The position numbers and the translations under genes are program-made. This document shows, in pieces, positions 20,441-64,000 of a DNA stretch of 64,000 nt. The DNA is from Polytrichum commune (Eukaryota; Streptophyta; Polytrichopsida; Polytrichales; Polytrichaceae). The DNA is taken from assembly GCA_950295325.1 (NCBI GenBank), contig OX485804.1:23746001-23810000 (forward strand), read 5' to 3'. Numbering within the stretch: the first letter of the stretch is position 1; each line of letters starts with the position of its first letter. The notes beneath the pieces were generated by a model. It worked only from the letters and a program-made list of their open reading frames with translations. It did no database searches and had not been told where the DNA came from.

Positions 20441-23400
20441 TGGTCCTGAAAATTTCTGGAAGGTGTCATCTCCTTCCGCTGGGGCAGTCTAAATCCTGCG
20501 TTTTCTAAAGAGAGGATCTCTTTGCGGGTTAAGTTGGTCCCCAACTTAACCGGCCATACCTCCGGAACGTTCGGGACTGAGACCACCCACCTCCTTTTTG
20601 TACCCTTAACGCATCTCTCAATGTCGTCATTGCAGAAAAAGAAGTCTTGAGGGTCCAATCTCTTCTTCCGATAGTTATCCATGAGGCCTGAGTAGGTAGG
20701 TGCAACGGTGCTCTTCCCGTCTTGTACAATCCGAGCGACGCACTTCTTCTTGGTGATTGCTTGTAGAGCAAAGCAAGCCTTCGCAGATGTCTTAGGCAGC
20801 CGTGCGATGTGCCACTGGGCAGGGTTGCATAATGTTTCCTCAATCGCGGTGATGTGGTGCCGATCCACCCGCTGCGGAGCGTCGTGTGTTGGAAATTGCG
20901 GTTCGTTTTCATCTGCAGTTGTGGGAGAATCTGGAGTTGTCACAGGAGGTGGAGAATCGTTCAGTCGGGCAGATCTGGTTTGGACGCGTGGTCGGGATAT
21001 ACTGATCTTGTCTGGCCTGTGAGATTCACGTTCGTCACCGAAAGCAGTATCCGGTTTACGCTTCAAAGAAACAAATACCTCTTCCCCTTCGAGGTGGGGA
21101 ATCCTGGTGCACCACTCGTCACCGCCAGGCATCTTCAAGATGGCCTCATGCAGCGGTTTCGAGATTCCTGTTTTTACGGCAGACCTCTGAGCACGCCTCA
21201 GCTTCAATTCCTCCTTCGACGGTCCAATTCCAGGGTTCTCTCCCTTTAGGAATTGGGAATATGCTAAGCACTGCATGAAAGCACGCACGAAGTCATCGAT
21301 TGTTGCCACATAAAGGTCGCTGCCCCGATCGCCAGATTGTTGCTTCCACTTGTTGTGGATAGATTCAGCAAGGTTACAGGATGGCATTTCCGCTAGTTCA
21401 GCTTCACTTAGATCCTGCAATGCCCATACAGTCCGAATTAGAATAATGGCGGAATCAATGTAGTTGAAGCATAAAGTGGGAACTATACAGGAAATATAGA
21501 GGGAAGCATAGACTTACCAACTCCATAAATCCACCCCATTGGCGGTAACGGAAATGCCAGAAGGCCAGCCAGAGCTCCAGTCGAGGTAGACCTTGTTCAG
21601 TTGCTGCCCCGGATGTCGCGCACCTCTCCATGAGGAGTGCCCGAAACACCATGGGCACAAGGGGGACCCCGGAGTGACACCCGGGACTTGTGGCGCCGTT
21701 GGTGAGAGGGCCCAAGTGATCCTAGTGTGGGTGAGGGCCCCGGGCGTTGGGAACGCCTCCCACCCACGAAGACTAAGAGGCACAAGGGTAAGGCCATGAG
21801 TTATGCGTAGCTCATGGCGTGGTGATTCTAGAAAGCTCAAGAACACCTCAATCGGAGGTGTGAGCTAGGAGTTATGGCCATTTGAGTGGGGCGCTGTCCC
21901 GGGACAGCGCCCTGGTGCAGCAGTGCCTGGGAGTGACTCCCGGGACTGCCAAGGTTCAAACAGGCATAACGTCCTCAATACTTGCGCGAATGGGGCAAGT
22001 GAGGAGTCCATCGGCATCTACGTGAAGCGTAGATGAAGATGAAGTGGTTGGTTGTTATGATCGGACATCATACAAGGAAGTTATGATGATCTGAAGCTGC
22101 TGGGGGGTTCTAGGTCCAGCAGCTAAAGGAAAATGTCCACTTGGCCCCAACTCTTGGTAGAGAGACAAGAGGTTGGTTGACGGTGGGGTAGGGGCCCCGC
22201 GTGAAGTCCTAGAGGCTTATATGGGTGAGGTGGTGTGGCCTCACCCACCCGAGGCCGAACGGCAAGGCCTCCATGGGCTTTGGCCTATTGTGAGGCCATA
22301 GTTGCCTAGTATGGTTCGGGTTGTTGTAGTGTTGCTCCGGCAACACGATGATCAACATAGGATTGGACTTCCATGGATGGAAGTCCACATTGGGGAAATG
22401 GGTTACCGATTAAGGGGTGAGTCCCGAAAGCAAAGTAGGAGGGTTGGTTCCCTCCTATGAACTATTGGTCCGGGGTAAGAGGAGCTATCCATTAGCATGG
22501 CGGAATGCGAATGGTTAGCGCTCGTAACCTTTGGTAGAAATGAAAATTGGCAAGATTGTCAAGGGGGGCTAGCAAGGGTTGCGACACCGGATGACATCCA
22601 CCATGCCCGAATTGCCAAATACTTTGTCTCGGCCTCCGCCATCGATTTTGCATTCTTGTATTGCTGGCATAGTATTCGATGCTGATGTTGCAGGTCTTGA
22701 CGGATGTCGGCCTTGGTATGTTTCTCCAAGGACTGCGTCCAATGGAAAAGACAAGTCCTCTCTCTATCCACCATCTTCTCAGACACATCTCCACTTCCGT
22801 ATATGATTCGAACAGCATTCCAGTTGGCTTGGGCACTGTCGGCCATGAAACCTTTAAAATTGACTTTGTCCACTCCATGTTGAGCCATGAGAGCATTCAG
22901 GTTCTTCCATACAACTGACTGGGCTGCAACATCTTCAGACTGCATGTCGCATACTGCGATGGTCATGACATGGCAATATGTGGAATCGTACACATGGCAA
23001 GCCATTGTCGTCCACGACCTGACACGTTTGACATGGTCAAACATTATCCAGGAGTTCTCCAAGTCACCACCGGGTTGCATTCGTTTGACAAGGTCAACTC
23101 CGCTGCCCGGTCCAACTTCAGACATCTTGAAGACAAAAACCTTGTCCATGTCCGCTCCTTGCCCTGGAAACCTATTCTATTGCACGAACCTCCAATTGCT
23201 AGCACCGCGTAACTTGGTAATACTGTCCATGACTCCAAAGCGACGCATAGTCCTGAACGTGGTGACTGCGTTACGAATGTTGGGCGAGGTGAGGTGCTTA
23301 CACCGATCGAAAATAACTTGCAGCTCGTCCAGCTCCAAGATCTTTTGTGGGTCACCTTCTTTAGCAAGGAGGAGTGGGCCCAGTACTTCCTTTGCAGTTT

Positions 23401-24586
23401 CAAGCACAATAGCGGAGCGAGTGGCTGATGGGGTGCGTTCAACTTGATCCCCAATCAAGGTGTTTGTCAAATCGATGAAGTCCCGATGATCACATGACTT
23501 GACGGGATGGTCGTAAGATCCCAAGTGCACACAAGCCCTCGTCATGTGAGGTGTCGCGGTAACATAGTAGATCTTGGCAGTGCAGACAGCAATACAGGTG
23601 GGAGGGACGTTACATGATTTGCAAACAACGGTCGAACCAGTTGGAGGCTTGGAACCCACTTCAAATAATTTCTCAGATAATCCTTCCCACTCTGTTTCAT
23701 TCACTTTGGAAATCCTATGGTCTCGCTGAAGATACTCACAGGCAGGATTGTCGCAACGGAGGTGGCCCAAACAAGAAGATGCACGAAACAAAAGCTTCAG
23801 ATCATTTTGAATATTGGATGTAATTGTGCGAGTCCAAGCATGGCCATCGTACCTTCTATCCATTCCACGAAGCAGCTTGGCCTTTGTATTATGGCCATGG
23901 TCACCTAAAGGTGGAAACTCGAAGATAACGTCCCCATCGTAACGAGGAGGAAGGTAATCAACCTGCTGGAGTCTGATCACATCAAAGTTAATTCGAGATA
24001 ACACACTTTTGGACCGCTTACGAGCTCCAAGGCGCATCAATGAATGAATGATACTGACAAGAAGACTTGCCACAACCTTGGCCTGACCAGGATTAGGAGA
24101 CGGACTAACAGGAGGAGTTGTTTCCTTGCGAACTACTTGTGGAGACAACGAAGCTTGGACTCTGCTCGCTGATTTTAAGAATTCAACATCGCCGTCGGAA
24201 TCATCACTCAACTCATAAATTGTATTTAGACCGGGCTCAATTTTGACCTTAGACAGCACCGGTCTCTCAATGCTAATAGTGGAAGACTCCTTGGGTGTTA
24301 GAAGTTCAGTGGAACACTCAAACATAGACTCGGAGACTCCATATACACGATATTTTCCAGGCTTCAACAACCAGAACGTACCGACGTCATTATCTACTCT
24401 AGTCTGACAAACTGCATGTGAAACTAGACCGGTATGATCGTCAAAAACTTCTTCTTCGACAAAGATAGTGACCTCACGATATTGAAACCTCAAACTCAAT
24501 GTTGCACAAGTGACTATAGCATGACCGTCTTCACCTAATGGAAAGAGGACCGGAACAGAATGAGGTTCAGCATGAAGCAGGGCCAT
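20441..24586 (-). pseudogene. MULE-1: Mutator-like transposase with GCM/WRKY-type zinc module
   Basis: A paralogue of MULE-2. Exon 1 runs 24586-22587, resumes at 21608 after a solo LTR, and ends at 21518. Exon 2 runs from 21415 until it meets CACTA-1 at 20440. Excluding the LTR and one target copy leaves exon 1 at 2,091 nt, in frame. Features: a KVKIEPG/YELSDDSDGD segment, zinc ligands in CLGHLRCDNPACEYL and HLGSYDHPVK, YDSTYCHV and FMADSAQANWNAV around the first two catalytic Asp, and NLAESIHNKW with the catalytic Glu in exon 2. Lesions: a TAG stop at 23179-23177, the LTR, and loss of the SWIM end. YDST replaces MULE-2's YDGT. It cannot make a full transposase. Confidence 0.88.
21609..22591 (+). 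mobile_element. Solo LTR (973 bp) of the Gypsy family, inside MULE-1
   Basis: The LTR occupies 21614-22586 and is the same length as the two LTRs of the complete element, but in the opposite orientation. It is flanked by a perfect CCGGA duplication (21609-21613 and 22587-22591). It differs from those LTRs at scattered positions, for example in the AGCTGCTGG...CCAGCAGCT hairpin. It arose by an independent insertion followed by LTR-LTR recombination. Its removal rejoins MULE-1 codons in frame. Confidence 0.95.
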
Positions 24587-25045
24587 AGTATACCACAGAA
24601 CTCTGAACAAAACAAGTACTGTGAACATTGAAATGGCATGAATATATAAGAGGGAACAAATTACTATGCAAACTGGTAATTTATGTACCAGCAAGCAGAA
24701 TTTCAGAAGATAATAGAGAGACATGGAGAGTAAGCTGAAAGACGGCTGAAAAACCATTTTTGGATGCAAGTCCAAGATAGGTAAGAAACCGATATTTATT
24801 TCAAACATAATATTCCAATATAAATAGAGCAAAAGAGGTGGGCGTATCATACACACTCACAAGGTGTTATGTTTACCTGTTTTCAAATAGTAGAAACCAA
24901 AAACAGACATACATTCTAAACATTGTTGGTTATAATATATATTGGCAAATAAGGCCATAAGAATGACGGCCGCCACGAATAATGTGGAGAGCATGATAGT
25001 AGCTCTGCAATAATAAATCCCAAACAATAGAATGCTACATTGTGA
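24587..25045. other. MULE-1 upstream region
   Basis: AT-rich sequence between the MULE-1 start and the next minus-strand frame. The MULE-1 frame stays open upstream to 24856, but that extension is hydrophobic and has no counterpart in MULE-2. I therefore place the start at the ATG at 24586. No clear promoter motif is assigned. Confidence 0.4.
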
Positions 25046-25474
25046 TTAACGACAAAGACGCTTATGGGGCCCTTTGCCATTTTTGTCACCGTCATGTTTA
25101 TGACAATGGTCAATCCCTAAACTATGAACTGCAGTGCATCCTGCGCAACCGAGTTTCTGTCGTTTGGGAAGTGGGAAACTCCTTAATACAGATCTAGAGT
25201 ACGTGCCCGGTTTAATAACCCCTGCTCTAGAATATGCATGAGTCTGTAAAGTAGACAAGTCCTCTATCAGCGTTGCAACATCCGCTTGCAAGGATGGAGT
25301 CCGTGCATGTGGACTCTGAACCACGACCGCCGGAGTAACTGAGGAGTCAGGTGGGTTGTCAATCTTCATGTTGTTGACAACTGCGAAACCATCGATGGAC
25401 AACGTGGTGTGAACTTGAGATGTACTAGGAGAACCTAAAGGAGCAGGGCTTGGGAGACTTGAGTCAGTACCCAT
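25046..25474 (-). CDS. Hypothetical 142-aa protein, Ser/Pro-rich with a Cys/His end
   Basis: The minus-strand frame starts MGTDSSLPSPAPLGS (25474) and ends in a basic, Cys/His-rich tail: KRQKLGCAGCTAVHSLGIDH, then CHKHDGDKNG and KRLCR. The tail could bind zinc, but I recognise no family. It lies between MULE-1 and the divergent plus-strand gene. MULE-2 has no equivalent in its 320-base upstream gap. The frame is longer than chance favours, but the gene is unproven. It could also be a 5' exon. Confidence 0.35.
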   Translation of the reverse strand: MGTDSSLPSPAPLGSPSTSQVHTTLSIDGFAVVNNMKIDNPPDSSVTPAVVVQSPHARTPSLQADVATLIEDLSTLQTHAYSRAGVIKPGTYSRSVLRSFPLPKRQKLGCAGCTAVHSLGIDHCHKHDGDKNGKGPHKRLCR

Positions 25475-25914
25475 TAGAGAAGAATATGATGAGATGACAT
25501 GAAGGAATGGGTACAAGCAATCGGGTATTATATACACCTAGGGTAGACACCAATGCGCGAATATTTGATAACATGTTAGATCAATTAATAGTCAATGTTT
25601 ATTTATGTAAATGCTGGACACCCTGTTTCATGTAGGAAAAGAATGTACTACAATAATAGTCAATACTTTATCAACCACCAAATATGTGACATGGCAGGAT
25701 TCTATTATGTAGAATAGGTTTTAGTGCCGCCAATTGTAGTGTATTAATGCTGTGTGGATTAACAGAGGAATAAATCAAGGAAATGCAGATTAATTATCTA
25801 AATCCAATGTGAACACAATTATCCAAAATGTGAACATAATGATGGAGAATAGATGTTAATTATGACAGAGTTGACAATGATATATAAGATCTGTTTGCTT
25901 CAATATTATTAGAG

Positions 25915-26455
25915 ATGAACACTAGGTCGAGAGCGAGAGCAGATCGAGAGATTAGGAGGACTATTGAAAAACAGAGGCGTATTGAGAGAAGGCAAAGGTT
26001 AGAATCAAGAGGGAGCTTAGGAACGCCGTACAACTTGCGGACAACAATGGGTAGACGAGGGGTTAATTCTTCTAGGGGCACATGTAGAGGTTCCAAAGGA
26101 GAAAAAACGTTTGATGTTTCAAAGGTAGCTCCAGTAGTATTATTTCCTGTATCGGAGGAAGACAACGAAGTTGACAAAGGGGGCAGTGAGGTGATGTTTA
26201 TCTGCAATCATAATGAAATTTTTATATGTGCAATCATAATGTTAAGTTCTATCACGGATAGTTGGAACAAATGAGACTCTCTAAATTCCCTTGTTGTGTG
26301 GGCAATGGTATCGGCTCCTTTATGTTGTGTTTTATGTTTGGTGGGGGATTGTGAATTGGGTTTGGTTTGGGTATCTGGAACAGGGAATGACGCAGACACA
26401 GGTTCAACCTGAGGCAACCTCCAGTGCCTCAACATCAGATCAAAGTGAGGAGCAG
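25915..26455 (+). other. Proposed exons 1-2 of the ParB/methyltransferase-like gene
   Basis: Exon 1 (25915-26190) starts MNTRSRARADREIRRTIEKQ, a basic stretch suggestive of nuclear targeting, and ends at GAG followed by GTGATG. Exon 2 (26384-26455) begins after AACAG, encodes a Thr/Ser/Gln-rich acidic stretch (TSSASTSDQSEEQ), and ends at CAG followed by GTTTGT. Both have lengths divisible by three and join in phase 0 to the exon at 31720, which has a good acceptor (ATATTTTGCAG). A TATATAA-like box lies at about 25880. No transcript evidence is available, so this is an inference from splice signals and frame. Confidence 0.5.
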
Positions 26456-29400
26456 GTTTGTAAAGATTGTAATCAATTGGTGACTTGAATGGTTTAGGGT
26501 AAGGGGTCTTTCAAATGCTAACATTGTATAAGGCCAAATTCATAGCTAATGAGCACCGGACATATACACTTAACAGATCCTTGGCGAATTCGATCAAGGC
26601 GCTGATAAAGGTGATCTTCGCGAAGCAAGAATGGACAATGAAGAACAACAATTCGGGGAAGAGGTACGTTGTCCCACACAAAAACACCCTGAATTTTATT
26701 TTTTTGCATAGTGTTCGGAGATCCAAGATTGTGAACTGAAATAAGGTAGACACCTATACCTCCCGAGGGAGACATTTCTGGTGAGGGGGAGGGTTGACGG
26801 TTGAGGGTGAAGGCGAGGGTTATGTGTCGTTCTTGGAGTTCTTGAAATCTGATGTGAGGTCTAGATATGGACGTATTAAGGTCCAACTGATGTGAGGTTA
26901 GATATGTGGGTTACAAGTGCAATCTGATATGAGGTTAGTTTGGACTTGTGGGTATAAGGGTGATCTGATGTAAGCTTAGAAAATTTTGAAATTCCAGCGC
27001 CGAGTTTGAGTGTCTCGGTCCCGAGACACAATTTTTGGTATTCAAACTGTAAACCCTACAATGATATTTGATATGGAAATCTAGATTTATTTGGTATAAG
27101 GGTACTCTGATTTGACACCAAACATGTGTGTTTGAAGTGCAATCTAATGTTAGGTCTAGATATGCTAGTATTAAGGTCAAACTGATGTGAGGTTAGATAT
27201 GTGGGTTACAAGTGCAATCTGATATGAGGTTAGTTTGGACTTGTGGGTATACGAGTAATGTGATTTAAGTTTCGAAATTTTTGAAATTCCAGCGCCGAGT
27301 TTGAGTGTCTCGGTGCCGAGACACAATTTTTGGTATTCAAACTGTAAACCTTACAATGATATTTGATATGGAAATCTAGATTTATTTGGTATAAGGGTAC
27401 TCTGATTTGACACCAAACATGTGTGTTTGAAGTGCAATCTAATGTTAGGTCTAGATATGCTAGTATTAAGGTCAAACTGATGTGAGGTTAGATATGTGGG
27501 TTACAAGTGCAATCTGATATGAGGTTAGTTTGGACTTGTGGGTATACGAGTAATGTGATTTAAGTTTCGAAATTTTTGAAATTCCAGCGCCGAGTTTGAG
27601 TGTCTCGGTGCCGAGACACAATTTTTGGTATTCAAACTGTAAACCCTACAATGATATTTGATATGGAAATCTAGATTTATTTGGTATAAGGGTACTCTGA
27701 TTTGACACCAAACATGTGTGTTTGAAGTGCAATCTCATGTTTGGTCTAGATATGCTAGTATTAAGGTCAAACTGATGTGAGGTTAGATATGTGGGTTACA
27801 AGTGCAATCTGATATGAGGTTAGTTTGGACTTGTGGGTATACGAGTAATGTGATTTAAGTTTCGAAATTTTTGAAATTCCAGCGCCGAGTTTGAGTGTCT
27901 CGGTGCCGAGACACAATTTTTGGTATTCAAACTGTAAACCCTACAATGATATTTGATATGAAAATCTAGATTTATTTGGTATAAGGGTACTTTGATTTGA
28001 CACCAAACATGTGTGTTTGAAGTGCAATCTAATGTTAGGTCTAGATATGCTAGTATTAAGGTCAAACTGATCTGAGGTTAGATATGTGGGTTACAAGTGC
28101 AATCTGATATGGAGTTAGTTTGGACTTGTGGGTATACGAGTAATGTGATTTAAGTTTCGAAATTTGTGAAATTCCAGCGCCGAGTTTAAGTGTCTCGGTG
28201 CCGAGACACAATTTTTGGTATTCAAACTGTAAACCTTACAATGATATTTGATATGGAAATCTAGATTTATTTGGTATAAGGGTACTTTGATTTGACACCA
28301 AACATGTGTGTTTGAAGTGCAATCTGATGTGAGGTCTAGATATGCTAGTATTAAGGTCAAACTGATGTGAGGTTAGATATGTGGGTTACAAGTGCAATCT
28401 GATATGAGGTTAGTTTGGACTTGTGGGTATAAGGGTGATCTGATGTAAGCTTAGAAAATTTTGAAATTCCAGCGTCAAGTTTGAGTGTCTTGGTGCCGAG
28501 ACACAATTTTTGGTATTCAAACTGTAAACCCTACAATGATATTTGATATGGAAATCTAGATTTATTTGGTATAAGGGTACTCTGATTTGACACCAAACAT
28601 GTGTGTTTGAAGTGCAATCTCATGTTTGGTCTAGATATGCTAGTATTAAGGTCAAACTGATGTGAGGTTAGATATGTGGGTTACAAGTGCAATCTGATAT
28701 GAGGTTAGTTTGGACTTGTGGGTATACGAGTAATGTGATTTAAGTTTCGAAATTTTTGAAATTCCAGCGCCGAGTTTGAGTGTCTCGGTGCCGAGACACA
28801 ATTTTTGGTATTCAAACTGTAAACCCTACAATGATATTTGATATGAAAATCTAGATTTATTTGGTATAAGGGTACTTTGATTTGACACCAAACATGTGTG
28901 TTTGAAGTGCAATCTAATGTTAGGTCTAGATATGCTAGTATTAAGGTCAAACTGATGTGAGGTTAGATATGTGGGTTACAAGTGCAATCTGATATGGAGT
29001 TAGTTTGGACTTGTGGGTATACGAGTAATGTGATTTAAGTTTCGAAATTTGTGAAATTCCAGCGCCGAGTTTAAGTGTCTCGGTGCCGAGACACAATTTT
29101 TGGTATTCAAACTGTAAACCTTACAATGATATTTGATATGGAAATCTAGATTTATTTGGTATAAGGGTACTTTGATTTGACACCAAACATGTGTGTTTGA
29201 AGTGCAATCTGATGTGAGGTCTAGATATGCTAGTATTAAGGTCAAACTGATGTGAGGTTAGATATGTGGGTTACAAGTGCAATCTGATATGAGGTTAGTT
29301 TGGACTTGTGGGTATAAGGGTGATCTGATGTAAGCTTAGAAAATTTTGAAATTCCAGCGTCAAGTTTGAGTGTCTTGGTGCCGAGACACAATTTTTGGTA

Positions 29401-32400
29401 TTCAAACTGTAAACCCTACAATGATATTTGATATGGAAATCTAGATTTATTTGGTATAAGGGTACTTTGATTTGACACCAAACATGTGTGTTTGAAGTGC
29501 AATCTCATGTTTGGTCTAGATATGCTAGTATTAAGGTCAAACTGATGTGAGGTTAGATATGTGGGTTACAAGTGCAATATGATATGAGGTTAGTTTGGAC
29601 TTGTGGGTATACGAGTAATGTGATTTAAGTTTCGAAATTTTTGAAATTCCAGCGCCGAGTTTGAGTGTCTCGGTGCCGAGACACAATTTTTGGTATTCAA
29701 ACTGTAAACCCTACAATGATATTTGATATGAAAATCTAGATTTATTTGGTATAAGGGTACTTTGATTTGACACCAAACATGTGTGTTTGAAGTGCAATCT
29801 AATGTTAGGTCTAGATATGCTAGTATTAAGGTCAAACTGATGTGAGGTTAGATATGTGGGTTACAAGTGCAATCTGATATGGAGTTAGTTTGGACTTGTG
29901 GGTATACGAGTAATGTGATTTAAGTTTCGAAATTTGTGAAATTCCAGCGCCGAGTTTAAGTGTCTCGGTGCCGAGACACAATTTTTGGTATTCAAACTGT
30001 AAACCTTACAATGATATTTGATATGGAAATCTAGATTTATTTGGTATAAGGGTACTTTGATTTGACACCAAACATGTGTGTTTGAAGTGCAATCTGATGT
30101 GAGGTCTAGATATGCTAGTATTAAGGTCAAACTGATGTGAGGTTAGATATGTGGGTTACAAGTGCAATCTGATATGAGGTTAGTTTGGACTTGTGGGTAT
30201 AAGGGTGATCTGATGTAAGCTTAGAAAATTTTGAAATTCCAGCGTCAAGTTTGAGTGTCTTGGTGCCGAGACACAATTTTTGGTATTCAAACTGTAAACC
30301 CTACAATGATATTTGATATGGAAATCTAGATTTATTTGGTATAAGGGTACTCTGATTTGACACCAAACATGTGTGTTTGAAGTGCAATCTAATGTTTGGT
30401 CTAGATATGCTAGTATTAAGGTCAAACTGATGTGAGGTTAGATATGTGGGTTACAAGTGCAATATGATATGAGGTTAGTTTGGACTTGTGGGTATACGAG
30501 TAATGTGATTTAAGTTTCGAAATTTGTGAAATTCCAGCGCCGAGTTTAAGTGTCTCGGTGCCGAGACACAATTTTTGGTATTCAAACTGTAAACCCTACA
30601 ATGATATTCGATATGGAAATCTAGATTTATTTGGTATAAGGGTACTCTGATTTGACACCAAATATGTGTGTTTGAAGTGCAATCTGATGTGAGGTCTAGA
30701 TATGCTAGTATTAAGGTCAAACTGATGTGAGGTTAGATATGTGGGTTACAATTGCAATCTGATATGAGGTTAGTTTGGACTTGTGGGTGTAAGGGTGATT
30801 TGATGTAAGCTTAGAAAATTTTGAAATTCTAGGGCCGAGTTTGAGTGTCTCGGTGCTGAGACACATTTTCTGGTGTTCAAACTGTAAACCCTACAATGAT
30901 ATTTGATATGGAAATCTAGATTTATTTGGTATAAGGGTACTCTGATTTGACACCAAACATGTGTGTTTGAAGTGCAATCTAATGTTAGGTCTAGATATGC
31001 TAGTATTAAGGTCAAACTGATGTGAGGTTAGATATATGGGTTACAAGTGCAATCTGATATGAGGTTAGTTTGGACTTGTGGGTATAAGGGTGATCTGATT
31101 TAAGCTTCGAAATTTTTGAAATTCCAACGCCGAATTTGAGTGTCTTGGTCCCGAGACACATTTTCTGGTTTTCATACTCTACTACCTACAATCATAGTAG
31201 ATATTGATATCTAGATATGCTTGTTATAAGTGTACTCTGATATGATGTTAGAAATGTTTGTTAGAAGTGTAATCTGATCTAATGTTTGATATCTGTAAGG
31301 ATAGGTAGGTTTGAAATTGAATTTTAGAGTTGATTTCTAGTTTCTCGGTCCCGAGAGATTATTTGAGACTATGAAACTCTTCCACCTCACTATGACTTTA
31401 GGGGCTATAAGTGTAATCTGATATAAGTGTAACCTGATATGAGTGTAATCTTATATAAGTGTAACCTGATATGAGTGTAATCTTATATAAGTGTAACCTG
31501 ATATAAGTGTAATTTGATATATTGTAAATTTGCAATGTGAGCTAAGAGGGTGATCCGATGTAAGGATCACTATTTCATGAGTTGAATATTTGTGCCTAGT
31601 ACTAGTGTCTCGGTACCGAGACATGTCTTTTGATGGTCAAACAATACCACATACACTTATAACTGATGGCAGCTGAGCTCATGTTCTCTCCTTGATTAAC
31701 TAGTACATATATTTTGCAGGTAGAGAACAACGCAATGGAGGATGTTCCTGCTCTTTCTCTGTTTTCTCTAGACTATTCTGAAGAGGGTCAGGATGAGGAT
31801 GAAGAGGGGCTTGGAGATAGAGATCCATATGAAGGGGATGAAGATGATATCAGGACCCAACATAAACTTAATTCTGTTGCCACGATTTCTCGACTGAGAG
31901 TCCAACCCCTGAGTTCCTCAAGGTTCCCTATTTCCTTGTGCAGAATGTTGGCCATGCCTATGGTGAGGCCGACTCTCCCAAGTGATCTTGCTAAATTGGA
32001 GCAGGAGTTTGTGCATGGGTATAGAGAGGGTGCCTCGGTATTTTATGTGACAATAACAAATGAAGAAGGGAAAACACATGAGGTTACTAAGGCTGATAAG
32101 GCATCGTGGGGTCCTATTTGGAGTGCCAAAAATGAACAATTCAACTCCTTTCTTCTGTCCGTTCCAGAGTTAGCCGGTTTTATGAATTTGATGTTCTTTG
32201 TTTGTGACGGGAACCATAGGCGGCAGACTTGGTTGAACCATATTGAACGACTTCACAAAACAGAAGAGTCATGGCATTTTTTGGTGGATAGCATCCTCCT
32301 TGATACCAAGGGAAAAATTGGTATTGTTATGCAAGTTATGCATAATATCAACAAGTAAGTTTTTTAAGTCCATTTTTTGAGGTTTTCATCTATGTACATA

Positions 32401-42410: not shown

Positions 42411-42440
42411 ATATATATATATATACACACACATACAAAC
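42411..42440. repeat. TA/CA microsatellite
   Basis: A short alternating run of TA followed by CA dinucleotides. Confidence 0.9.
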
Positions 42441-43542: not shown

Positions 43543-43543
43543 G

Positions 43544-52586: not shown

Positions 52587-52701
52587 GTTGTGTGTCCCGA
52601 ATTGGAAGATGTTACCTCACTGGGCCAATGTTACACACCCTGCAGCGCTTCCGCAAGGTCTCCGCGTGGTCGTGTTGCGCATGAGCATTGATATAAACAG
52701 A

Positions 52702-54246: not shown

Positions 54247-54723
54247 TTGCACACAATGGGAAATGAGAGAGACATGTTTGCTGGATTAGGATGGGATAAG
54301 GAAATTAGAAGTCTAGCAGATCCTCATATTCCGGTTAATCCATCGCCGGAATTTCAGTTTGCTGCTGGAAATCGAAGTAGTGATGACTACGAGCTGACTT
54401 CATTTTCGCAATCTACACAAGCATGGAGGTGGAGGGTACGGGAGGAGCAAAAAAAATATGAGAAAAAAGAAAACAGGCAGGAGGATGTGCCGGAGAAGGA
54501 TGCTGATTTGGATGAAGACAAATCGAACGAAACGGAGGAGGAGATGAAGGTGGAAGGGGAATCTTTGAAGTATCTTTCATTTCGCGAACGGATGAGAGGA
54601 ATGATGCCACATCATCTTCCGCTGAAGGATCGAAAGAGAGATAAGACAGTTTCTTATATGGATTTGCTTCGACCGGGTCCACCTCCCTCGCAATCATCTA
54701 AGAAGTATGCAAAACGGAAATAG
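54247..54723 (+). CDS. Orphan terminal exon, unknown acidic/basic protein
   Basis: An open frame of 158 codons follows the acceptor TGTATATACAG. It encodes FAGLGWDKEIRSLADPHIPV, an acidic Lys/Glu stretch (about residues 70-110) and a basic end (SSKKYAKRK) before TAG. Acidic then basic composition suggests a nuclear protein. It converges on MULE-2, whose stop is 162 bases away. It could be the last exon of a gene whose 5' part was displaced, or it could start at an internal ATG (54256). No family recognised. Confidence 0.4.
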   Translation: MHTMGNERDMFAGLGWDKEIRSLADPHIPVNPSPEFQFAAGNRSSDDYELTSFSQSTQAWRWRVREEQKKYEKKENRQEDVPEKDADLDEDKSNETEEEMKVEGESLKYLSFRERMRGMMPHHLPLKDRKRDKTVSYMDLLRPGPPPSQSSKKYAKRK

Positions 54724-54884
54724 AGTTGATAGACATAGGAAGCATTGTAATACAAAATTTTGAAGCAAATAAAAATAATCATTGAGATTATACCTTTATT
54801 ATATCAATCAATTATTGCTTCACAAGAGGTCCAGAAATGGATACATATATCATAGCCCAAAGTACTGCTAGGCTGAGATAAATT

Positions 54885-57800
54885 CTAAGAAGTAGACTTT
54901 GTCAAAAGACCCCCTTCGAGGAAGAGTTTGACTTCGTTGAAGCTAAATGTCGAGGTGTGAATGAACAAATTCACTTCCGCATCCAAATTATAAACATTGA
55001 TGAAAATGTAATACAAATGCTTACAATTCAGATAAGAATTTCGTTTGCGGCTGAACTTGGAAATCATATCCAAGAAGTATGCGCAGTTGCACTCTGGAAG
55101 AGAACTGACTGTCATTTGGTAGATCGGTGGTTGGGGTTCTGATTTGGACTGCAGTGTGATAATGCAACCAAATCCCGGTTGAGGGATCATAGTTAACTTC
55201 AGAACGGTACCATGCACAGCTTCAGCAGAGGCCACCATCTGCCTCTGCTTTGCCGAAGGTGCGCTGCTGGATCGCCGAACAAGCTTGGACAATCTTGTCG
55301 GAGGGATCATGTCGGGGCTTTCTGGAACACGGATTCCAGACATATCCAGCGGGGGAGCAGAGTTGGTGAAGAGTTGAGTCGGTGTGATGCGCTCCTTTGG
55401 TGGGAGTTGAAAACCTGCGTTCTCAAGGGCGAAGATCTCCGAGTGGGTGAGGTTGGTACCAATCTTCACGGGCCAGATTGGGGGAATAGGAGGCTTCTGG
55501 TCATCAGCAGAGAACTGCATGACCCATTTCCGACGAGGGCCCTTCACGCAACGCTCAATGTCGTCTGGGCAAAAGACAAAGTCCGTGCGCTTCATAGATT
55601 GGAGTTTGTAATGATGCCACATACCGGTGTAGGTCAGCGCAGGGACGCTCTTATTATTAGTGACGATTCTTGCGGTGCACTTCTTCTTCGTGCCCGCATG
55701 ATTAGCCCAACAAGACTTCCCAGATGTATAGGGTATGCGGGCAATATGCCAAAGAGAGACATCTACTTTGGTTTCTTGCACGGCAGTGACACGCTGGAAA
55801 CCAAGTCCTGCAGGTGAAGGCACTTGAACCTCTTGTACAGACGGGGAACACTCCTCAATGATAGTGGGTAGTGTTTCTGGTTGAGATCGAGTGACACGCT
55901 TACCGGGGGGAGGGCGAGAGAAGTTCACGGTATCGGGGCGGTGGGTCTCGCCATCATCACCAATTGGAGTGTCTGGTCTTCGCTTCTGCGATCCAAACAC
56001 CTCGGCGCCTTCAAGGTGTGGATCGCGAGTGCAAAATTCTTCCCCACCGGACATGTCAAGCAAGACCTTCTGCAACACTGTGGGGTCGCCAGTACGCTGA
56101 GCTCGACGTTGAGCACCCCTGAGCTTTAGTTCTTCTTTGCTTGGACCATCTCCGCCAATTCCACCTTTAAGGAACTGGTAGTATGCAACAACTTGTAAGA
56201 AGGCGCGAATGTAGTCGTCAACCGTAGCCACGTATAGATCTCCACCCTTGTTGCCGGAGGCTTGAAGCCACTTGTTGCCGGAGGCTTGAAGCCACTTGTT
56301 GTGGACGGACTCCGCAAGATTGCACGACGGCATCTCGGCCAATTGGTCTTGGGTTAAAACCTTTTCCTGATTGGAGAAATCAAGTATTAATATAAATGTA
56401 CAGAGAGAGGAAATCGAATCCAAGAAAAACCAATAATGAATTATAAAGGAGATGTACCAATTCCATGAAACCACCCCATTGAAGGTAGCGGAAGTGCCAA
56501 AAAGCAAGCCAGAGCTGAAGATGCTTGAGACCGTCCTCACTTGTACAATTCGATGACGCCCACCAAGCCTTGATAGCTAGGTACGTAGTCTCAACCTCTT
56601 CCATAGATGACGCATTTCGATATTGAAGGCAAAGATGTCTATGTTGGTCTTGTAACTCATGCTTTATATACGATTTCGTATGTTTTTCGAGCGATTGTTT
56701 CCAATGGAAAAAACAAGTGCGCTCACGACCCTCCATTGGAACTTTGGGATCCCCTGAACCATACACAATGCGAACAGCGTTCCAATTGGCTTGGGCACTG
56801 TCCGCCATGAAGCCTATAAAGTTTGGATGTGGGATACCGTGTCGGGCCATGACGTGGTTGAGGTTCTGCCAGAAGAGAACTTGGGCATCCTTATTCTCCG
56901 ATTGGAAATCACAACATAAAATGGTCATGACCCGTTGATAAGTCCCATCGTACACATGAGCGGCCATGGTGGTCCACCCATTGATCCGCTTCACGTGATC
57001 GGACATCATCCACGCGTTCTCCAGGTCCCCACCCGGTTGCATCCGACGAACCAAATCCACTCCACTTCCAGGACCAACCTCCGACATCTTGAAGACGAAC
57101 ACCTTGTCTGTATTGTCACCTTGTCCTGGGAATTGGTTCCGTTGGACGTAGGCCCAATTGCTAATGCCTCGGAGCTTCGCGATGCCATCCATAACACCAA
57201 ACCTCCGCAAATATTTGAAAGAGGTAACCTTAGAGCGAAGGTTTGGGGAATTCAACTCTCTACAGCTCTCAAAAACAGGTTCAAGCTCTTTTAAAGAGAA
57301 GAGACGGTGTGTGTCATTATCGCCAGAAAGGAGAAACTCACCAACAATGTCCTTGCTAGCTTCAAGGACGATCTTGCTGTGGGTGGCTTGAGGCGTACGT
57401 TCAACGTGCTCCTCAAGAAGTGCATTGATACGCTTCCGACTGTCTCTGCAGTCTCCAACCTTCACTGGATGTTGATGAGAACCGAGATGAATGTAGGCTC
57501 TTTGGGATGACTCCTTCCCATGGACGTAGAAGATTTTGGCCTCGCATAGTGCAATGCATTTGGGAGGCTCTTTACAAATCCTGCAGACAAGAGTAGATCC
57601 GGATGGCACAATGCCAGAGAGAGGGAAAGGATCTTTAGTGAAACCTTCAAATTCTGTGTCATTGACCTTAGAGGTATGATGGGCGCGTTGAAGGTAATCA
57701 CAACTCGGGTTTTGGCATTGGAGATGGCCAACACAGGTAGAGGAACGAAATGCAAGGCCAACGTCGTTTGTAATGTTGGTGGTTTGAGTCTTAGTCCAAA

Positions 57801-58581
57801 CATGGCCATCATATTGCTTGTCCATGCCGTCCAACGACTTGGCCCTGGTTTGAGATGAAGAGACTTCTGTTGCAGGGAGGACAAATAACTGGGTGCCATC
57901 GAAACGAGGGGGAAGGTGATTAACTTCTTGGATTTTGATTTTATCGTAATCTATTTTCTTGAGGACGTTCTTACTACCGGGCATAGAGCCAAGACGACGA
58001 AGACATTGAACAATAGTTTGAGGAGGTTTAGATGTAGGGACCGAAGTAGTTGAAGGGACAGAGCTAGATGGAGAAGGCGTTACGTAGGATGCAAAGGGAA
58101 ACAAATGAGGGGAATCATGGACAACAACCTTATGCACTGGTACATCTTCACTCGAAGAATCAGACAAGTCTATAACGTTGTCTACACCAGGCTCGGTCTT
58201 GACGCTTATTACCGGGGGTGTGCTAAAGGCAACAGTGGATGATCGAAGAGGAGGAAGGATTTCTGTTGACACTCCCATCTGAGAATCTGGCCAGCCACAA
58301 ACCCTATACTTTCCCACGCCAAGCTCCCACACTACATTGCCATTGTCAGTTACCTTGGAGGTCTCATGGAAGGTATGAACGAGCAATCCAGTATCAGGAT
58401 GGTAGATCTCACGCTCTACCCATATTGTACTAGCTTTCAAAGAGAACCTAATGCTAAGATGAAGCTCCGAGACAACAACAATACCTTGTGCACCAATGGG
58501 GAATATAATAGGGACCCCGATGCCATGTGAACGAAGTTCGGCCATCTCAGAGACGGGAGGAAGAATTGAGGTGGAAGCCAT
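54885..58581 (-). CDS. MULE-2: Mutator-like transposase with GCM/WRKY-type zinc module and SWIM end
   Basis: Two exons, 58581-56458 and 56366-54885, joined by a 91-base GT-AG intron, give an uninterrupted 1,201-residue protein. Order: N-terminal domain shared with MULE-1; VKTEPG and VIDLSDSSSED (~128-146); zinc module at ~283-371 (CVGHLQCQNPSCDYL, CRICKEPPKC, HLGSHQHPVK); MULE catalytic core with YDGTYQRV (Asp ~545), FMADSAQANWNAV (Asp ~594) and RTCFFHW; catalytic Glu in NLAESVHNKW (~727, exon 2); SWIM zinc finger CNCAYF...NCKHLYYIF (~1134-1160). MULE enzymes cut and paste DNA with long inverted ends, and some are domesticated regulators. The start at MASTS matches MULE-1 homology; an upstream ATG at 58620 is possible. 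It looks functional. Confidence 0.85.
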
Positions 58582-58900
58582 GAAGGCAGAGAAAGCAAAC
58601 GTGAAGGAACAAAGATGCAAAGATGCATAGAGAAGGAGAATGGTGATGATGATGAAGTTATAAACAAATACGCATGAATATCAGGAAGGAGACAAAACTG
58701 TCAGGCATCCTAAAAAAAGATACCCCTAATTACAAAGATGGTTGTTAGATAGTAAAGCGCGCCTCCCATCGGGAGGTATTGCAATTATATACTGAGAAGA
58801 ATGCGATTGCTCACTTTCTTTCCAATGTGTGAGTTTGATGTGGTGAGGTTGTGGAAAGGAAATAGAGCGAATAGGTCTGAATTGCGGGAGGGTTGAACAC
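58582..58900. promoter_or_regulatory. Divergent intergenic region
   Basis: About 320 bases separate the start of MULE-2 and that of the plus-strand gene. The two must share upstream sequence. No TATA box or operator can be assigned with confidence. Confidence 0.35.
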
Positions 58901-59849
58901 ATGAAGGAAATAGGCAATTCACAACCTCCGACAACGGAACCATCTAAGAAAAAGAAGAGGAGGCGATCGTCTACACATTACACTGATAAGAAGAGAAAGA
59001 CAGTGAGGACACAAAAGTCACAGGCAAGGAAAGCGCCAATCGAGGGCCGTGGGACGCCCGAGGATTTGAGCCAAAGCATAAAGGACCTGCGGAAACCTTC
59101 GTGGAGGCTAGACTGTGGGATTCGGCCTTTTCATTTATCACCGATTGTAGAAGAGGCGGACGGAAGTAAAGCGCAACCAATGGCAGAAGTGGAGGAGTTG
59201 GGAAACGACAGCATCCAAGAGGACTCACGCGAAGAAACAAACTCTACAAGTATCGTACGTATTCTTCGGGTTCTCCATATATTCAGTTGTTTGAGCACAT
59301 AATAAAAATGGTAGAACATATTCAACTGTGAAACAACTTTTCTTTTAGATATTATGGTTTGTCATCATTGTTATAAACATTGTTTTATCTTAAATATAGG
59401 AAGAAGGGGGGAGTGGAGATAGTGGAAATATCTACGAAGAAGACAACAAGGAGGTAGCACAACAAATTGAGAAGGCGTTAGAAGAGCGAGAACCGATGTC
59501 GGGACAACCAACGATTCAAGCAAGAGAAAAAATGAAGGCGTCCAAGAGGAAAGCGGCAAAGGAAGATCTGAAATCAAATTTGTTGGGAGGCCGCGAAAGA
59601 GCTGAAGGAGGAGACCCATGCGCAGAAACCCTAAGTGTGGATGTTGTGACCCCTGCTTCAAGATTTCAGCGAAGCAAGGCGGGCGGAACACAACAAACAT
59701 CAAGGCGAGGGCGTGGCCGCGGGAGAGGAATGGCGCAAGTAAACCTCAGAGATTCGAGAAGCACTCCAATAACGCCGACAGAGGACGGGACCTCGGAAGA
59801 TAGTGGCGCCAATATAGGGGCTTCAGTGGAGGGCATACTCCAAATTTTG
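58901..59849 (+). CDS. First exons of a divergent plus-strand gene
   Basis: Exon 1 (58901-59254) starts MKEIGNSQPPTTEPSKKKKR, very basic, then acidic, ending before GTACGT. Exon 2 (59400-59849) follows AAATATAG and encodes EEGGSGDSGNIYEEDNKEVA, a Lys/Arg-rich part and RRGRGRGRG, then ends before GTAAGG. Both are multiples of three and join in phase 0: 268 residues so far. Without splicing at 59849 the frame would end at 59900. A basic then acidic N-terminus divergent from a MULE gene repeats the arrangement at 25915. No enzyme domain lies within the window; further exons would be beyond 64000. Confidence 0.55.
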
Positions 59850-59984
59850 GTAAGGTGTCGGGATCTCGGCCAAGCTATGTTCGCCAACGTTTTTGCTTAA
59901 TTTCTATCACCTTGATTTCTCATAGTATTTGGAATATCAGCTTGACTTGCTTTCGGCCTTGTCCTGATTTGGGTTTAGGAACAT

Positions 59985-62065
59985 GTCAGGAAAGGTATGT
60001 TTGTGCTTGAAAAATCAAAAGGTTATGTGCACATCATGTTGCTCTCGGCCTTGTCTCATTTTGTGTAGTGCACAAGAATGAGCTAGGGGAAGAGGCCTCG
60101 GATCCGAGGCCTCATATTTGTGTAAGTTTGAGTATGTGAAAGGTAGGGTTTTGAGAGAGGCGAGGTTCTTGATTTCTCAAACAAATGGAATGTCGACTTT
60201 CTTGCTTTCTTGATTCCTTGCTCTCGGCCATTTCTTCTATTGTGTAGTGCATAAGTGGGAGCCATAGGAAGAGGCCTCGGATCCGAGGCCTCTTATTTGT
60301 GGGTAGGTTTGTGCTTGAAAAATCAAAATGTTATGTGCACATCAATTGCTCTTGGCCTTGGCTCGTTTTGTGTAGTGCACAAGAACGAGCTAGGGGAAGA
60401 GGCCTCGGATCCGAGGCCTCATATTTGTGTAAGTTTGAGTATGTGAAAGGTAGGGTTTTGAGAGAGGCGAGGTTCTTGATTTCTCAACCTAATGGAATGT
60501 CAACTTTCTTGCTTTCTTGATGCCTTGCTCTCGTCCGTTTCTTCTATTGTGTAGTGCATAAGTGGGAGCCATAGGAAGAGGCCTCGGATCCGAGGCCTCT
60601 TATTTGTGGGTAGGTTTGTGCTTGAAAAATCAAAATGTTATGTGCACATCAATTGCTCTCGGCCTTGTCTTGTTCTGTGTAGTGCATAAGAAAGAGCTAG
60701 GGGAAGAGGCCTCGGATCCGAGGCCTCATATTTGTGTAAGTTTGAGTATGTGAGAGGTAGGGTTTTGAGAGAGGTGAGGTTCTTGATTTCTCAAACTAAT
60801 GGAATGTCGACTTTCTTGCTTTCTTGATTCTTTGCTCTCGGCCATTTCTTCTATTGTGTAGTGCATAAGTGGGAGCCATAGGAAGAGGCCTCGGATCCGA
60901 GGCCTCTTATTTGTGGGTAGGTTTGTGCTTGAAAAATCAAAATGTTATGTGCACATCAATTGCTCTCGGCCTTGGCTCGTTTTCTGTAGTGCACAAGAAT
61001 GAGCTAGGGGAAGAGGCCTCGGATCCGAGGCCTCATATTTGTGTAAGTTTGAGTATGTGAAAGGTAGGGTTTTGAGAGAGGCGAGGTTCTTGATTTCTCA
61101 AACAAATGGAATGTCGACTTTCTTGCTTTCTTGATTCCTTGCTCTCGGCCATTTCTTCTATTGTGTAGTGCATAAGTGGGAGCCATAGGAAGAGGCCTCG
61201 GATCCGAGGCCTCTTATTTGTGGGTAGGTTTGTGCTTGAAAAATCAAAATGTTATGTGCACATCAATTGCTCTTGGCCTTGGCTCGTTTTGTGTAGTGCA
61301 CAAGAACGAGCTAGGGGAAGAGGCCTCAGATCCGAGGCCTCATATTTGTGTAAGTTTGAGTATGTGAAAGGTAGGGTTTTGAGAGAGGCGAGGTTCTTGA
61401 TTTCTCAACCTAATGGAATGTCAACTTTCTTGCTTTCTTGATGCCTTGCTCTCGGCCGTTTCTTCTATTGTGTAGTGCATAAGTGGGAGCCATAGGAAGA
61501 GGCCTCGGATCCGAGGTCTTTTATTTGTGGGTAGGTTTGTGCTTGAAAAATCAAAATGTTATGTGCACATCAATTGCTCTCGGCCTTGTCTTGTTCTGTG
61601 TAGTGCATAAGAAAGAGCTAGGGGAAGAGGCCTCGGATCCGAGGCCTCATATTTGTGTAAGTTTGAGTATGTGAAAGGTAGGGTTTTGAGAGAGGCGAGG
61701 TTCTTGATTTCTCAAACTAATGGAATGTCGACTTTCTTGCTTTCTTGATTTCTTGCTCTCGGCCATTCCTTCTATTGTGTAGTGCATAAGTGGGAGCCAT
61801 AGGAAGAGGCCTCGGATCCGAGGCCTCTTATTTGTGGGTAGGTTTGTGCTTGAAAAATCAAAATGTTATGTGCACATCAATTGCTCTCGGCCTTGTCTTG
61901 TTTTGTGTAGTGCATAAGAAAGACCTAGGGGAAGAGGCCTCGGATCCGAGGCCTCATATTTGTGTAAGTTTGAGTATGTGAGAGGTAGGGTTTTGAGAGA
62001 GGTGAGGTTCCTGATTTCTCAAACTAATGGAATGTCAACTTTCTTCCATTTTTGATTCCTTGCTC
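59985..62065. repeat. 307-bp satellite array with trimeric higher-order units (921 bp)
   Basis: Units recur every 307 bases (landmarks 60255, 60562, 60869, 61176, 61483, 61790). Each holds two copies of a perfect palindrome with arms GAGGCCTCGG and CCGAGGCCTC around AT, spaced 179 and 128 bases apart. Sequence variants recur every third unit (60083 and 61004; 60299 and 61220), giving a 921-bp higher-order repeat. The 60-73 codon frames are repeats of each other, not genes. The array begins about 135 bases after the last exon of the plus-strand gene. Confidence 0.95.
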
Positions 62066-63235
62066 TCTGCCTTGTGCCCTACGGGTGAACGCCCGTGGGC
62101 CATGTAACAAGTAACTTGGTTAGGCATGTCTTTATGAGGCACTTTGGTTGGTTCTGAGTATGTAAACTAGTTTGTGTGTGAGGCCTCGGATCCGAGGCCT
62201 CTCGGCTGAGGCCACTTGAGGTTTTTTGATTCAAAGTATAACTTGTATGAATGAGGCACTTTGCTTGTTTTTGAGGATGTAAACTAGTTTGTGAATGAGG
62301 CCTCGGATCGGAGGCCTCTTTTATGTGTTCCAAAACAAGTGTACGGAAGAGGCACTTTGGTTTGTTTTGAGTATGTAAACTAGTTTGTGAATGAGGCCTC
62401 GGATCCGAGGCCTCTTTTATGTGTTCCAAAACATGTGTACGGATGAGGCACTTTGGTTTGTTTTGAGTATGTAAACTAGTTTGTGAATGAGGCCTCGGAT
62501 CCGACGCCTCTTTTATGTGTTCCAAAACATGTGTACGGATGAGGCACTTTGGTTTGTTTTGAGTATGTAAACTAGTTTATAAATGAGGCCTCGGATCCGA
62601 GGCCTCTTTTATGTGTTCCAAAACATGTGTACGGATGAGGCACTTTGGTTTGTTTTGAGTATGTAAACTAGTTTGTGAATGAGGCCTCGGATCCGAGGCC
62701 TCTTTTATGTGTTCCAAAACAAGTGTACGGAAGAGGCACTTTGGTTGGTTTTGAGTATGTAAACTAGTTTGTGTGTAAGGCCTCGGATCCGAGGCCTCTC
62801 GGCCGAGGCCACTTGAGGTTTTGTGATTCAAAGTATAACTTGTATGAATGAGGCACTTTGCTTGTTTTTGAGGATGTAAACTAGTTTGTGAATGAGGCCT
62901 CGGATCCGAGGCCTCTTTTATGTGTTTCAAAACATGTGTACGGATGAGGCATTTTGGTTTGTTTTGAGTATGTAAACTAGTTTGTGAATGAGGCCTCCGA
63001 TCCGAGGCCTCTTTTATGTGTTCCAAAACAAGTGTACGGAAGAGGCTCTTGGTTGGTTTTGAGTATGTAAACTAGTTTGTGTGTAAGGCCTCGGATCCGA
63101 GGCCTCTCAGCCGAGGCCACTTGATGTTTTTTGATTCAACGTATAGCTTGTATGAATGAGGCACTTTGCTTGTTTTTGAGTATGTAAACTAGTTTCAAAA
63201 TGAGGCCTCGGATCTGAGGCCTCCTTTTAGTGCCC
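62066..63235. repeat. 96-bp tandem array, first block
   Basis: Units of about 96 bp containing GTAAACTAGTTTGTGAATGA, the palindrome GAGGCCTCGG-AT-CCGAGGCCTC and TTTTATGTGTTCCAAAACAT. Variant units carry GGCCACTTGAGGTTTT and CTTGTATGAATGAGGC and recur at about 62200, 62800 and 63110. Because 96 is a multiple of three, minus-strand frames of up to 149 codons run through the array; they are artefacts. Confidence 0.92.
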
Positions 63236-63445
63236 TCGATCAGCAGTCCCCAGGGAGTGGCTCCCGGGACTGCGAATGTTTAAACAGGCATAATTTCCTT
63301 CAATTTTGCTCAAATGGAGCAAGTGAGGTGTCCATCGGCATCTACATTTCACGTAGATGACGATAGAGTGGTTGATTGTTAGATTCGGAGACAACACGTG
63401 GAAGATATGGAGGTCTGAAGCTGCCGGGGGGGGGAAATGTGTTTT
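63236..63445 (+). mobile_element. Gypsy-family LTR fragment inside the satellite
   Basis: This stretch matches the middle of the 973-bp LTR in the orientation of the solo LTR, equivalent to about 21925-22100: GGAGTGACTCCCGGGACTGC, then AAACAGGCATAA, CCATCGGCATCTAC, CACGTAGATG and TGAAGCTGC. It is diverged and lacks both ends, so it came by rearrangement or by old insertion followed by loss. The satellite differs in type on its two sides. Confidence 0.8.
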
Positions 63446-64000
63446 GTTAAGTGCATATGTAGGAGCTAGGAGAAGAGGCCTCGGATCCGAGGCCTCTTTT
63501 ATGTGTTCCAAAACAAGTGTACGGAAGAGGCACTTTGGTTTGTTTTGAGTATGTAAACTAGTTTGTGAATGAGGCCTCGGATCCGAGGCCTCTTTTATGT
63601 GTTCCAAAACATGTGTACGGATGAGGCACTTTGGTTTGTTTTGAGTATGTAAACTAGTTTGTGAATGAGGCCTCGGATCCGAGGCCTCTTTTATGTGTTC
63701 CAAAACATGTGTACGGATGAGGCACTTTGGTTTGTTTTGAGTATGTAAACTAGTTTGTGAATGAGGCCTCGGATCCGAGGCCTCTTTTATGTGTTCCAAA
63801 ACAAGTGTACGGATGAGGCACTTTGGTTTGTTTTGAGTATGTAAACTAGTTTGTGAATGAGGCCTCGGATCCGAGGCCTCTTTTATGTGTTCCAAAACAT
63901 GTGTACGGATGAGGCACTTTGGTTTGTTTTGAGTATGTAAACTAGTTTGTGAATGAGGCCTCGGATCCGAGGCCTCTTTTATGTGTTCCAAAACATGTGT
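63446..64000. repeat. 96-bp tandem array, second block, running off the window
   Basis: After one unit resembling the 307-bp type (GTTAAGTGCATATGTAGGAG), regular 96-bp units with the same palindrome continue to the last base. Units here are nearly identical, so this block was expanded recently. The 254-codon minus-strand frame (repeating KEASDPRPHSQTSLHTQNKP) is produced by the repeat. Confidence 0.92.

Follow-up and report, generated by a model that had tools for sequence, protein, structure and literature searches.

The 64,000-nucleotide stretch of the Polytrichum commune genome analysed here (the window, C2:23746001-23810000; the genome searched comprised 408 Mb in 64 contigs) holds two transposons, element A and element B, which belong to large families of DNA transposons resembling Mutator-like elements (MULEs). 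Each is one mobile unit, in which a transposase-like gene lies beside a second gene, the partner, whose introns carry palindromic satellites. By analogy with the VANDAL transposons of Arabidopsis and their VANC proteins, we read these satellites as arrays of binding sites that most likely serve an element-encoded anti-silencing function, with palindrome and protein diverging together, and we give this reading a probability of about one half. The first-pass annotation of this DNA had described two loci with the same plan, a minus-strand transposase-like gene, a divergent multi-exon gene and a palindromic satellite, and all of these are present; the reading of the arrays as binding sites is absent from it. 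The features are as follows, the partner gene models having been made by hand from the sequence and the C-terminus of partner B after exon 12 corrected by hand reading.

20440..42775: element A, a MULE-like transposon copy, left-truncated at 20440; its right inverted repeat ends at about 42775
20440..24586, minus strand: transposase-like gene A, truncated, with an insert at about 21616-22577 (seen by comparison with copies) and an in-frame stop near 23177
25915..38584, plus strand: partner gene A, 11 exons, 1110 amino acids, open, GT-AG at ten internal junctions, last exon cut by an insert resembling a long terminal repeat (LTR)
25915-26190, 31720-32354, 32444-32639, 32771-33001, 33090-33308, 33461-33696, plus strand: exons 1-6 of partner A
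35233-35926, 37375-37722, 37881-38154, 38264-38471, 38569-38584, plus strand: exons 7-11 of partner A
26846..31642, plus strand: satellite with palindromic sites (295-bp monomer) in the first intron of partner A, with further sites on its flanks; site TGTCTCGG-NN-CCGAGACA
31720..32354, plus strand: ParB-resembling exon of partner A (CDGNHRR; alignment A1)
33697..35232, plus strand: intron 6 of partner A, diverged satellite copies with 3 palindromic sites
35927..37374, plus strand: intron 7 of partner A, diverged satellite copies with 2 palindromic sites
37375..38471, plus strand: methyltransferase-like exons of partner A, with DIPE at the motif IV position and DCTVATGSS in the motif I region
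53740..64000: left part of element B; the complete element, 53740-76544 (22,805 bp), runs past the window
54885..58581, minus strand: transposase-like gene B, read as two exons, open; the upper coordinate is approximate (~58581)
~57440-57730, minus strand: GCM-like Cys/His region of transposase B, by eye from residue patterns, coordinates approximate
~55000-55100, minus strand: CxC...CxH (SWIM-like) finger of transposase B, by eye, coordinates approximate
58901..64000 in the window and on to 75542, plus strand: partner gene B, 13 exons
58901-59254 and 59400-59849, plus strand: exons of partner B inside the window
59994..64000 and on to ~71196 beyond the window, plus strand: palindromic satellite in intron 2 of partner B, site GAGGCCTCGG-AT-CCGAGGCCTC
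71588-75222, beyond the window, plus strand: ParB-like and methyltransferase-like exons of partner B

That the gene pair and its satellite form one mobile element, as the first-pass annotation had suggested, was borne out by shared ends. Three 40-kb stretches, two on C1 and one on C2, are colinear with the window from 20440 on and carry copies of element A that are 96–99% identical to it; on C7 only the right-hand part is present, matching the window from the intron-1 satellite onward. The A copies with both ends read (n = 2) are 16.1 and 17.2 kb long. All four copies with both ends read (two A, two B) are flanked by a 10-bp target duplication: TGCGGACACG at 53730-53739 and 76545-76554 for element B, GGCCTCTCGC for A copy c1a, TTCTTTTGAT for the B copy on C3 and, with one mismatch, GTTGGTATTG/GCTGGTATTG for A copy c1b. 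The terminal inverted repeats of about 30 bp, typical of MULEs, begin with GGACGA... on the left and GGGAAA... on the right (GGACGAAGCTATTTTGCGAGCGGTGAGCGG and GGGAAAAGCTATTTTGCGAGCGGTGAGCGG, respectively, in the A copies) and hold GAGCGG units, unlike the intronic palindrome motif. Target duplications of 10 bp fall inside the range of 8–11 bp given for MULEs in the part of PMC6446971 cited here. We call the elements MULE-like because of their ends, their target duplications and the residue patterns of the transposase; no Pfam family came near its cut-off.

The transposase-like proteins of A and B are 42–69% identical in long pieces. MULE transposases are marked by a SWIM finger and by a D-D-E pattern in which C-x2-H follows the second D; residues of this kind, DGTY, MADSAQ, CFFH and NLAES as well as CxC...CKH, were recognised by eye. 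The GCM-like and SWIM-like labels are our assumption from such eye-read patterns. A Pfam search with whole frames and cut-out domains returned no MULE profile, only unrelated sub-threshold matches (best E 0.047), so that the earlier designation "GCM-type MULE" was not upheld at profile level; a structure prediction of transposase B was too poor to use (pLDDT 37). At the DNA level, a comparison of 18000-48000 with 53000-64000 returned the transposase pieces (66–84% identical) and a single 200-bp stretch of 79% identity. This stretch lies at 21906-22107, within the insert of transposase A, and at 63229-63431, within the satellite of partner B, and is evidently a dispersed repeat that inserted into each element.

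In both loci the minus-strand transposase-like gene stands head to head with the plus-strand partner, and this arrangement recurs across the genome. The searches scored 150 of 1268 first-look candidates for the partner exon and 150 of 1733 for the transposase pieces. A scored transposase was found within 25 kb of 91 of the 150 scored partner exons, and in 88 cases it lay upstream on the opposite strand; random placement gave a mean of 3.2 in any orientation and a maximum of 9 (200 trials, with approximate lengths for C3 and C5). The genes thus proved to be neighbours and divergent far more often than chance, which the first-pass annotation had proposed as a genome-wide check. It had also predicted beforehand that partner exons, including a methyltransferase motif, would lie past base 64000, where they were found (71588-75222).

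The partner protein is conserved. Partners A and B are 25–37% identical by piece, and the phases of their shared internal exons agree. Exon 2 of partner A was found in 40 scored copies (of 122 candidates) at 87–100% DNA identity, and 118 of the 150 scored partner exons are stop-free by hand count. For 11 inter-subfamily pairs, with pS between subfamilies of 0.28–0.66, the dN/dS of the partner exon was 0.07–0.18; two near-identical pairs gave 0.27. Values of about 0.1 between subfamilies indicate that the protein has been kept by selection.

The core CTCGG-NN-CCGAG, already noted in the first-pass annotation, was counted over 104 kb including DNA beyond the end of the window. All 86 matches lie inside partner introns (A, 17; B, 69), with no match close to the inverted repeats or in the space separating the genes. 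Perfect palindromes with arms of at least 8 occurred at 2.0 per kb in intron 1 of A, 0.65 in intron 6, 2.1 in intron 7 and 6.7 in intron 2 of B, while shuffles of these regions gave means of 0.1–0.3 palindromes per region. Three stretches outside the elements had 0.19–0.35 per kb (7, 2 and 9 matches against shuffle means of 1.4, 0.7 and 1.1). Six other tandem arrays had none, but they are short (163–1205 bp) and their shuffles likewise gave none. The satellite had been placed after the first two exons of the partner, which holds for B; in A it follows exon 1 and recurs in introns 6 and 7. A monomer of about 300 bp is found in both (295 bp in A, 307 bp in B), with further monomer types of 128, 96, 485 and 127 bp in B. 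The trimeric higher-order structure proposed for it is weak in A (97.8% identity at lag 3, 95.3% at lag 1), slight in the 307-bp array of B (95.3 vs. 94.1%, six units) and absent from the 96-bp array of B. Otherwise near-identical A copies differ in the number of sites: 17 in the window, 9 in c1a, 10 in c1b, 37 in c7 and 10 in c2b.

Genome-wide, CTCGG-NN-CCGAG occurs 7400 times, against 154 for a reversed-pattern control. The first 100 listed sites come from the first 2.5 Mb of C1 and fall into seven clusters; 64 of them, in four clusters, have a listed partner exon at most 8 kb away with the site on its 5' side, and no site lies solely on the 3' side of such an exon. A cluster of 20 sites at G000:C1:467247-474772 has mixed central dinucleotides (AG, GG, TA, AT, GT) and no partner match within 2.7 kb on either side.

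Thirteen further copies (L029-L041), hand-picked across identity classes and hence non-random, were read 5' of the partner exon. Six carry CTCGG-NN-CCGAG (7 to 18 sites), one carries CTCG-ATTC-CGAG (12 sites), and L038 (G000:C3:42838226-42840980) has five copies of CGAGTG-A-CACTCG, in which the half-sites are arranged opposite to those of CTCGG-NN-CCGAG. The dyads reach 18–24 bp with flanks specific to the subfamily, as in the half-site forms AGAGGCCTCGG-AT-, TGTCTCGG-NN- and GACCCTCTCGG-AA-. Site type GGCCTCGG is found in B, L034 and L035 and also in L031, where many units have AGCC on one side; CCCTCTCGG in L030, L036 and L040; CCCTCTCG in L029; CCCACGG in L032 and L033; and TGTCTCGG in A. 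In a protein tree of 14 rows, without L040, two of 11 inner branches were well supported, and the four carriers of GGCCTCGG form a supported clade (96/98).

With the sites and 8 flanking bases masked, the satellites of A, of the B clade (B, L034, L035) and of L029, L030, L031, L036 and L040 show no mutual similarity at E 1e-3; without masking, the matches between several pairs are confined to the surroundings of the palindrome. The palindrome is thus conserved within otherwise dissimilar satellites. It stays while its surroundings are replaced and is therefore the putative signature of a binding site.

The C-terminus of the partner resembles a DNA methyltransferase, as the first-pass annotation had supposed. 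That of partner A matched PDB entries 5hfj/5hek with E 1.4e-6 and that of partner B with E 0.009; these entries, of a solved bacterial enzyme, are named in PDB as an adenine-specific DNA methyltransferase (DpnA), which we take to be M1.HpyAVI. The Pfam family N6_N4_Mtase (PF01555) matched A with E 1.5e-5 (25.5 bits vs. a cut-off of 26.7) and B with E 0.18. The significant matches span the motif I part, and motif IV was placed by order and context. A permuted order at the C-terminus, motif IV and then motif I, and similarity to solved members agree with the beta class of amino-methyltransferases. In the S-adenosylmethionine (SAM) loop region, B, L043 and L045 have DWQCG.G and A has DCTVATGSS, with variants elsewhere. 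The catalytic motif IV, [DNS]PP[YFW], is not kept in any of the five aligned sequences, which have DIPE, DIPE, DVPD, DVPE and NVPE, that is, [DN][IV]P[ED] where DPPY is expected. These comparisons support a permuted amino-methyltransferase-like domain with a changed catalytic motif, which would serve SAM sensing or DNA contact and not base methylation.

The ParB-like character that had been proposed for the partner found no such backing. GNHR, of the GxxR form of a ParB box, is invariant in seven aligned sequences, and the segment bears a resemblance to ParB that no profile confirms: seven members gave no match in Pfam, PHROGs returned weak matches without described function (best E 0.076), and the sole PDB match was a saposin-like chain (E 1.8). 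A single-sequence structure model of the exon of A was too poor to use (pLDDT 42). At the sensitivity of our scans, no relatives of the ParB-like exon were detected in phage records, viral contigs or prokaryotic genomes, and none of the methyltransferase-like part of A in viral contigs.

In the mechanism we propose, a dimer of the element's own partner protein would read the dyad and bind the arrays in its own introns. The bound partner would keep or make the element accessible, with loss of host silencing marks, and accessibility would lead to expression of partner and transposase. Palindrome and protein would diverge jointly, each subfamily serving itself. The location of the arrays in its own introns makes the partner the best candidate for the binder, and the analogy with VANC21 makes a role as an anti-silencing platform probable. 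From this we infer the identity of the binder, the anti-silencing effect and a co-divergence of site and protein throughout the family.

Several observations weigh against this interpretation. The sequence does not separate the partner, the transposase and a host factor as possible binders, and a single core is common to partners as unlike as those of A and B. Site type follows the protein tree with support only in the B clade; the tree gives poor resolution for copies with CCCTCTCGG, with CGAGTG-A-CACTCG or without any site. L032 and L033 carry a single CACGG-AT-CCGTG, not an array, and three of the 13 copies (L037, L039, L041) have no recurrent palindrome over ~2.1 kb on the 5' side of the exon; their sites may lie elsewhere or have been lost. 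Without masking, L036 and L040 can be aligned along 177 bp at 70%, and their arrays may share ancestry. The other three of the seven clusters on C1 were checked blind within flanks of 2.4–2.7 kb: two hold C-terminal partner exons with the sites 3' of them, and one is without a partner. Young A copies have a pN/pS of 0.45–1.09, and the four that were fetched have, respectively, two stops, three stops and a single-base insertion, a single-base deletion, and no match to exon 1. Our confidence is about one half because supported agreement with the tree is confined to the B clade and the A copies are partly decayed. For the same reasons we consider unlikely the boldest version, in which a captured phage-type ParB-methyltransferase with a rebuilt catalytic site would load at parS-like intronic arrays, spread and exclude host silencing, forming a co-diverging family of perhaps more than 1000 copies and fragments and a second, independently evolved anti-silencing system.

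The palindromes could instead be read by the transposase through its GCM-like region, as a synapsis enhancer or for cis-preference, with the partner as a transposition co-factor like mudrB. The element itself encodes this transposase, in which Cys/His-rich regions are recognisable by eye, and mudrB of MuDR is apparently required for integration according to the cited part of PMC6446971. The confinement of the A and B sites to partner introns, away from the inverted repeats and the space between the genes, and the different motif of the inverted repeats (GAGCGG units) speak against such sites, and we doubt this explanation. A host transcription or silencing factor reading the palindrome, with the arrays as an intronic enhancer or as the means by which the element is targeted, would account for a single core CTCGG-NN-CCGAG in distant subfamilies, as one host factor predicts. 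It fits less well with flanks that differ by subfamily, with dyads extended to 18–24 bp and with the other cores of some subfamilies (CACGG-AT-CCGTG, CTCG-ATTC-CGAG), and seems rather improbable.

It is less plausible again that the partner is an active DNA amino-methyltransferase placing N4-methylcytosine or N6-methyladenine as a self-mark on the palindromes or the element, as in restriction-modification or with bdelloid N4CMT. The domain and its motif order are recognisable, down to the DWQCG.G SAM-binding region of B, L043 and L045. The aromatic residue of [DNS]PP[YFW] stacks on the flipped base, however, and the [DN][IV]P[ED] found in all five aligned partners has no aromatic. We regard as very improbable that the satellites are passive, hairpin-prone palindromes having seeded tandem amplification and the common core reflecting ancestry or recombination. 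Array copy number does vary widely among near-identical A copies (9–37 sites), and site clusters exist where no partner exon was found; against this, the palindrome outlasts detectable similarity of the monomers between subfamilies at pS 0.28–0.66. Passive satellites were made unlikely by the masked-satellite comparison.

Both elements hold further sequences. Element A has two later inserts, at about 21616-22577 and at 38580-40864, and the apparent end of partner A comes from the second. This insert starts with TGTTGAGT and ends with ...GTGCATCA, has ATAAA on both sides, resembles a solo LTR and is not in copy c1a. An open frame (MGTDSSLPSP...) at 25046-25537 on the minus strand, between transposase A and partner A and partly present in c1a, could represent a small gene or an additional exon. 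Between the left end and the transposase gene of element B lies the following frame; in c1a, with about 0.36 kb from the left end to the transposase frame, there is no room for a counterpart.

54175..54723, plus strand: third, small open frame of element B (MGNERDMFAG...), 155 amino acids from the ATG, with many charged residues

Outside the two elements, long frames at 8085-11154 (plus strand) and 48331-52616 (minus strand) resemble TNP2-type (CACTA/EnSpm) transposases by eye, and the latter adjoins a perfect 111-bp tandem duplication at 52702-52931. Rfam at gathering thresholds matched nothing in the window. Elsewhere in the genome, 14 equal-scoring light-harvesting genes (PF00504) are clustered within 95 kb at G000:C5:1751760-1846160, out of 58 chlorophyll a/b-binding matches in all, in keeping with a photosynthetic green plant.

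The closest known system is that of VANDAL and VANC. As described in the cited parts of PMC5735166 and PMC10398659, VANC21 binds to short, tandemly repeated motifs in VANDAL introns and elsewhere in their noncoding DNA, and causes loss of methylation there; motif and VANC protein diverge between families, and related copies differ in repeat number. Elements A and B likewise combine a MULE with an extra gene, tandem motif repeats in the introns of that gene, array lengths that vary among near-identical A copies and subfamily-specific flanks, here with tree agreement supported in the B clade only. They differ in having inverted repeats, which in VANDALs are lacking or short and degenerate (cited part of PMC6446971), in the methyltransferase-like domain of the partner (VANC being taken by description, not by sequence) and in a long dyad palindrome, confined in A and B to partner introns, in place of YAGTATTAY. 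MuDR, with mudrB, and further MULEs that carry extra genes also have a transposase, a second gene and target duplications within 8–11 bp (same part of PMC6446971), whereas the partner is multi-exon, head to head, methyltransferase-like and has satellite-filled introns.

Should the ParB-like segment be real, its combination with a methyltransferase-like part has a parallel on the mobile DNA of phages, where a ParB-CTPase fold is fused to an N6_N4 methyltransferase (as described in the cited part of PMC12704722). Here the catalytic motif is changed, introns are present, the carrier is a eukaryotic transposon and ParB membership is unconfirmed. Fungal KDZ transposons carry TET/JBP genes, likewise homologues of DNA-modification enzymes on a transposon family expanded in one lineage; transposase and enzyme are different, and we know of no palindromic arrays in them. 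Bdelloids also have a bacterial-type amino-methyltransferase in a eukaryote, presumably N4CMT; here, in contrast, the catalytic motif is not kept and the gene is transposon-borne. N4-methylcytosine is reported as an epigenetic mark in bdelloids (PMC8885841, in the part cited). A MULE with an accessory gene and motif arrays is known; the partner, the palindromic form of the motif and the intronic satellites seem to be new. No named element with this partner and these arrays was found in searches of the open-licence PMC literature. We know of no described element of this kind, and VANDAL/VANC is the one plant system in which, to our knowledge, sequence-specific anti-silencing by transposons has been worked out in detail.

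The system looks like an independently evolved counterpart of the transposon self-protection of Arabidopsis. If this is true, intronic motif arrays would be suggested as a general solution to anti-silencing, and some satellite arrays would be explained as binding platforms inside the introns of transposon genes. The subfamilies would then offer a natural series of protein-site pairs for the study of changes in DNA-binding specificity and for epigenome tools.

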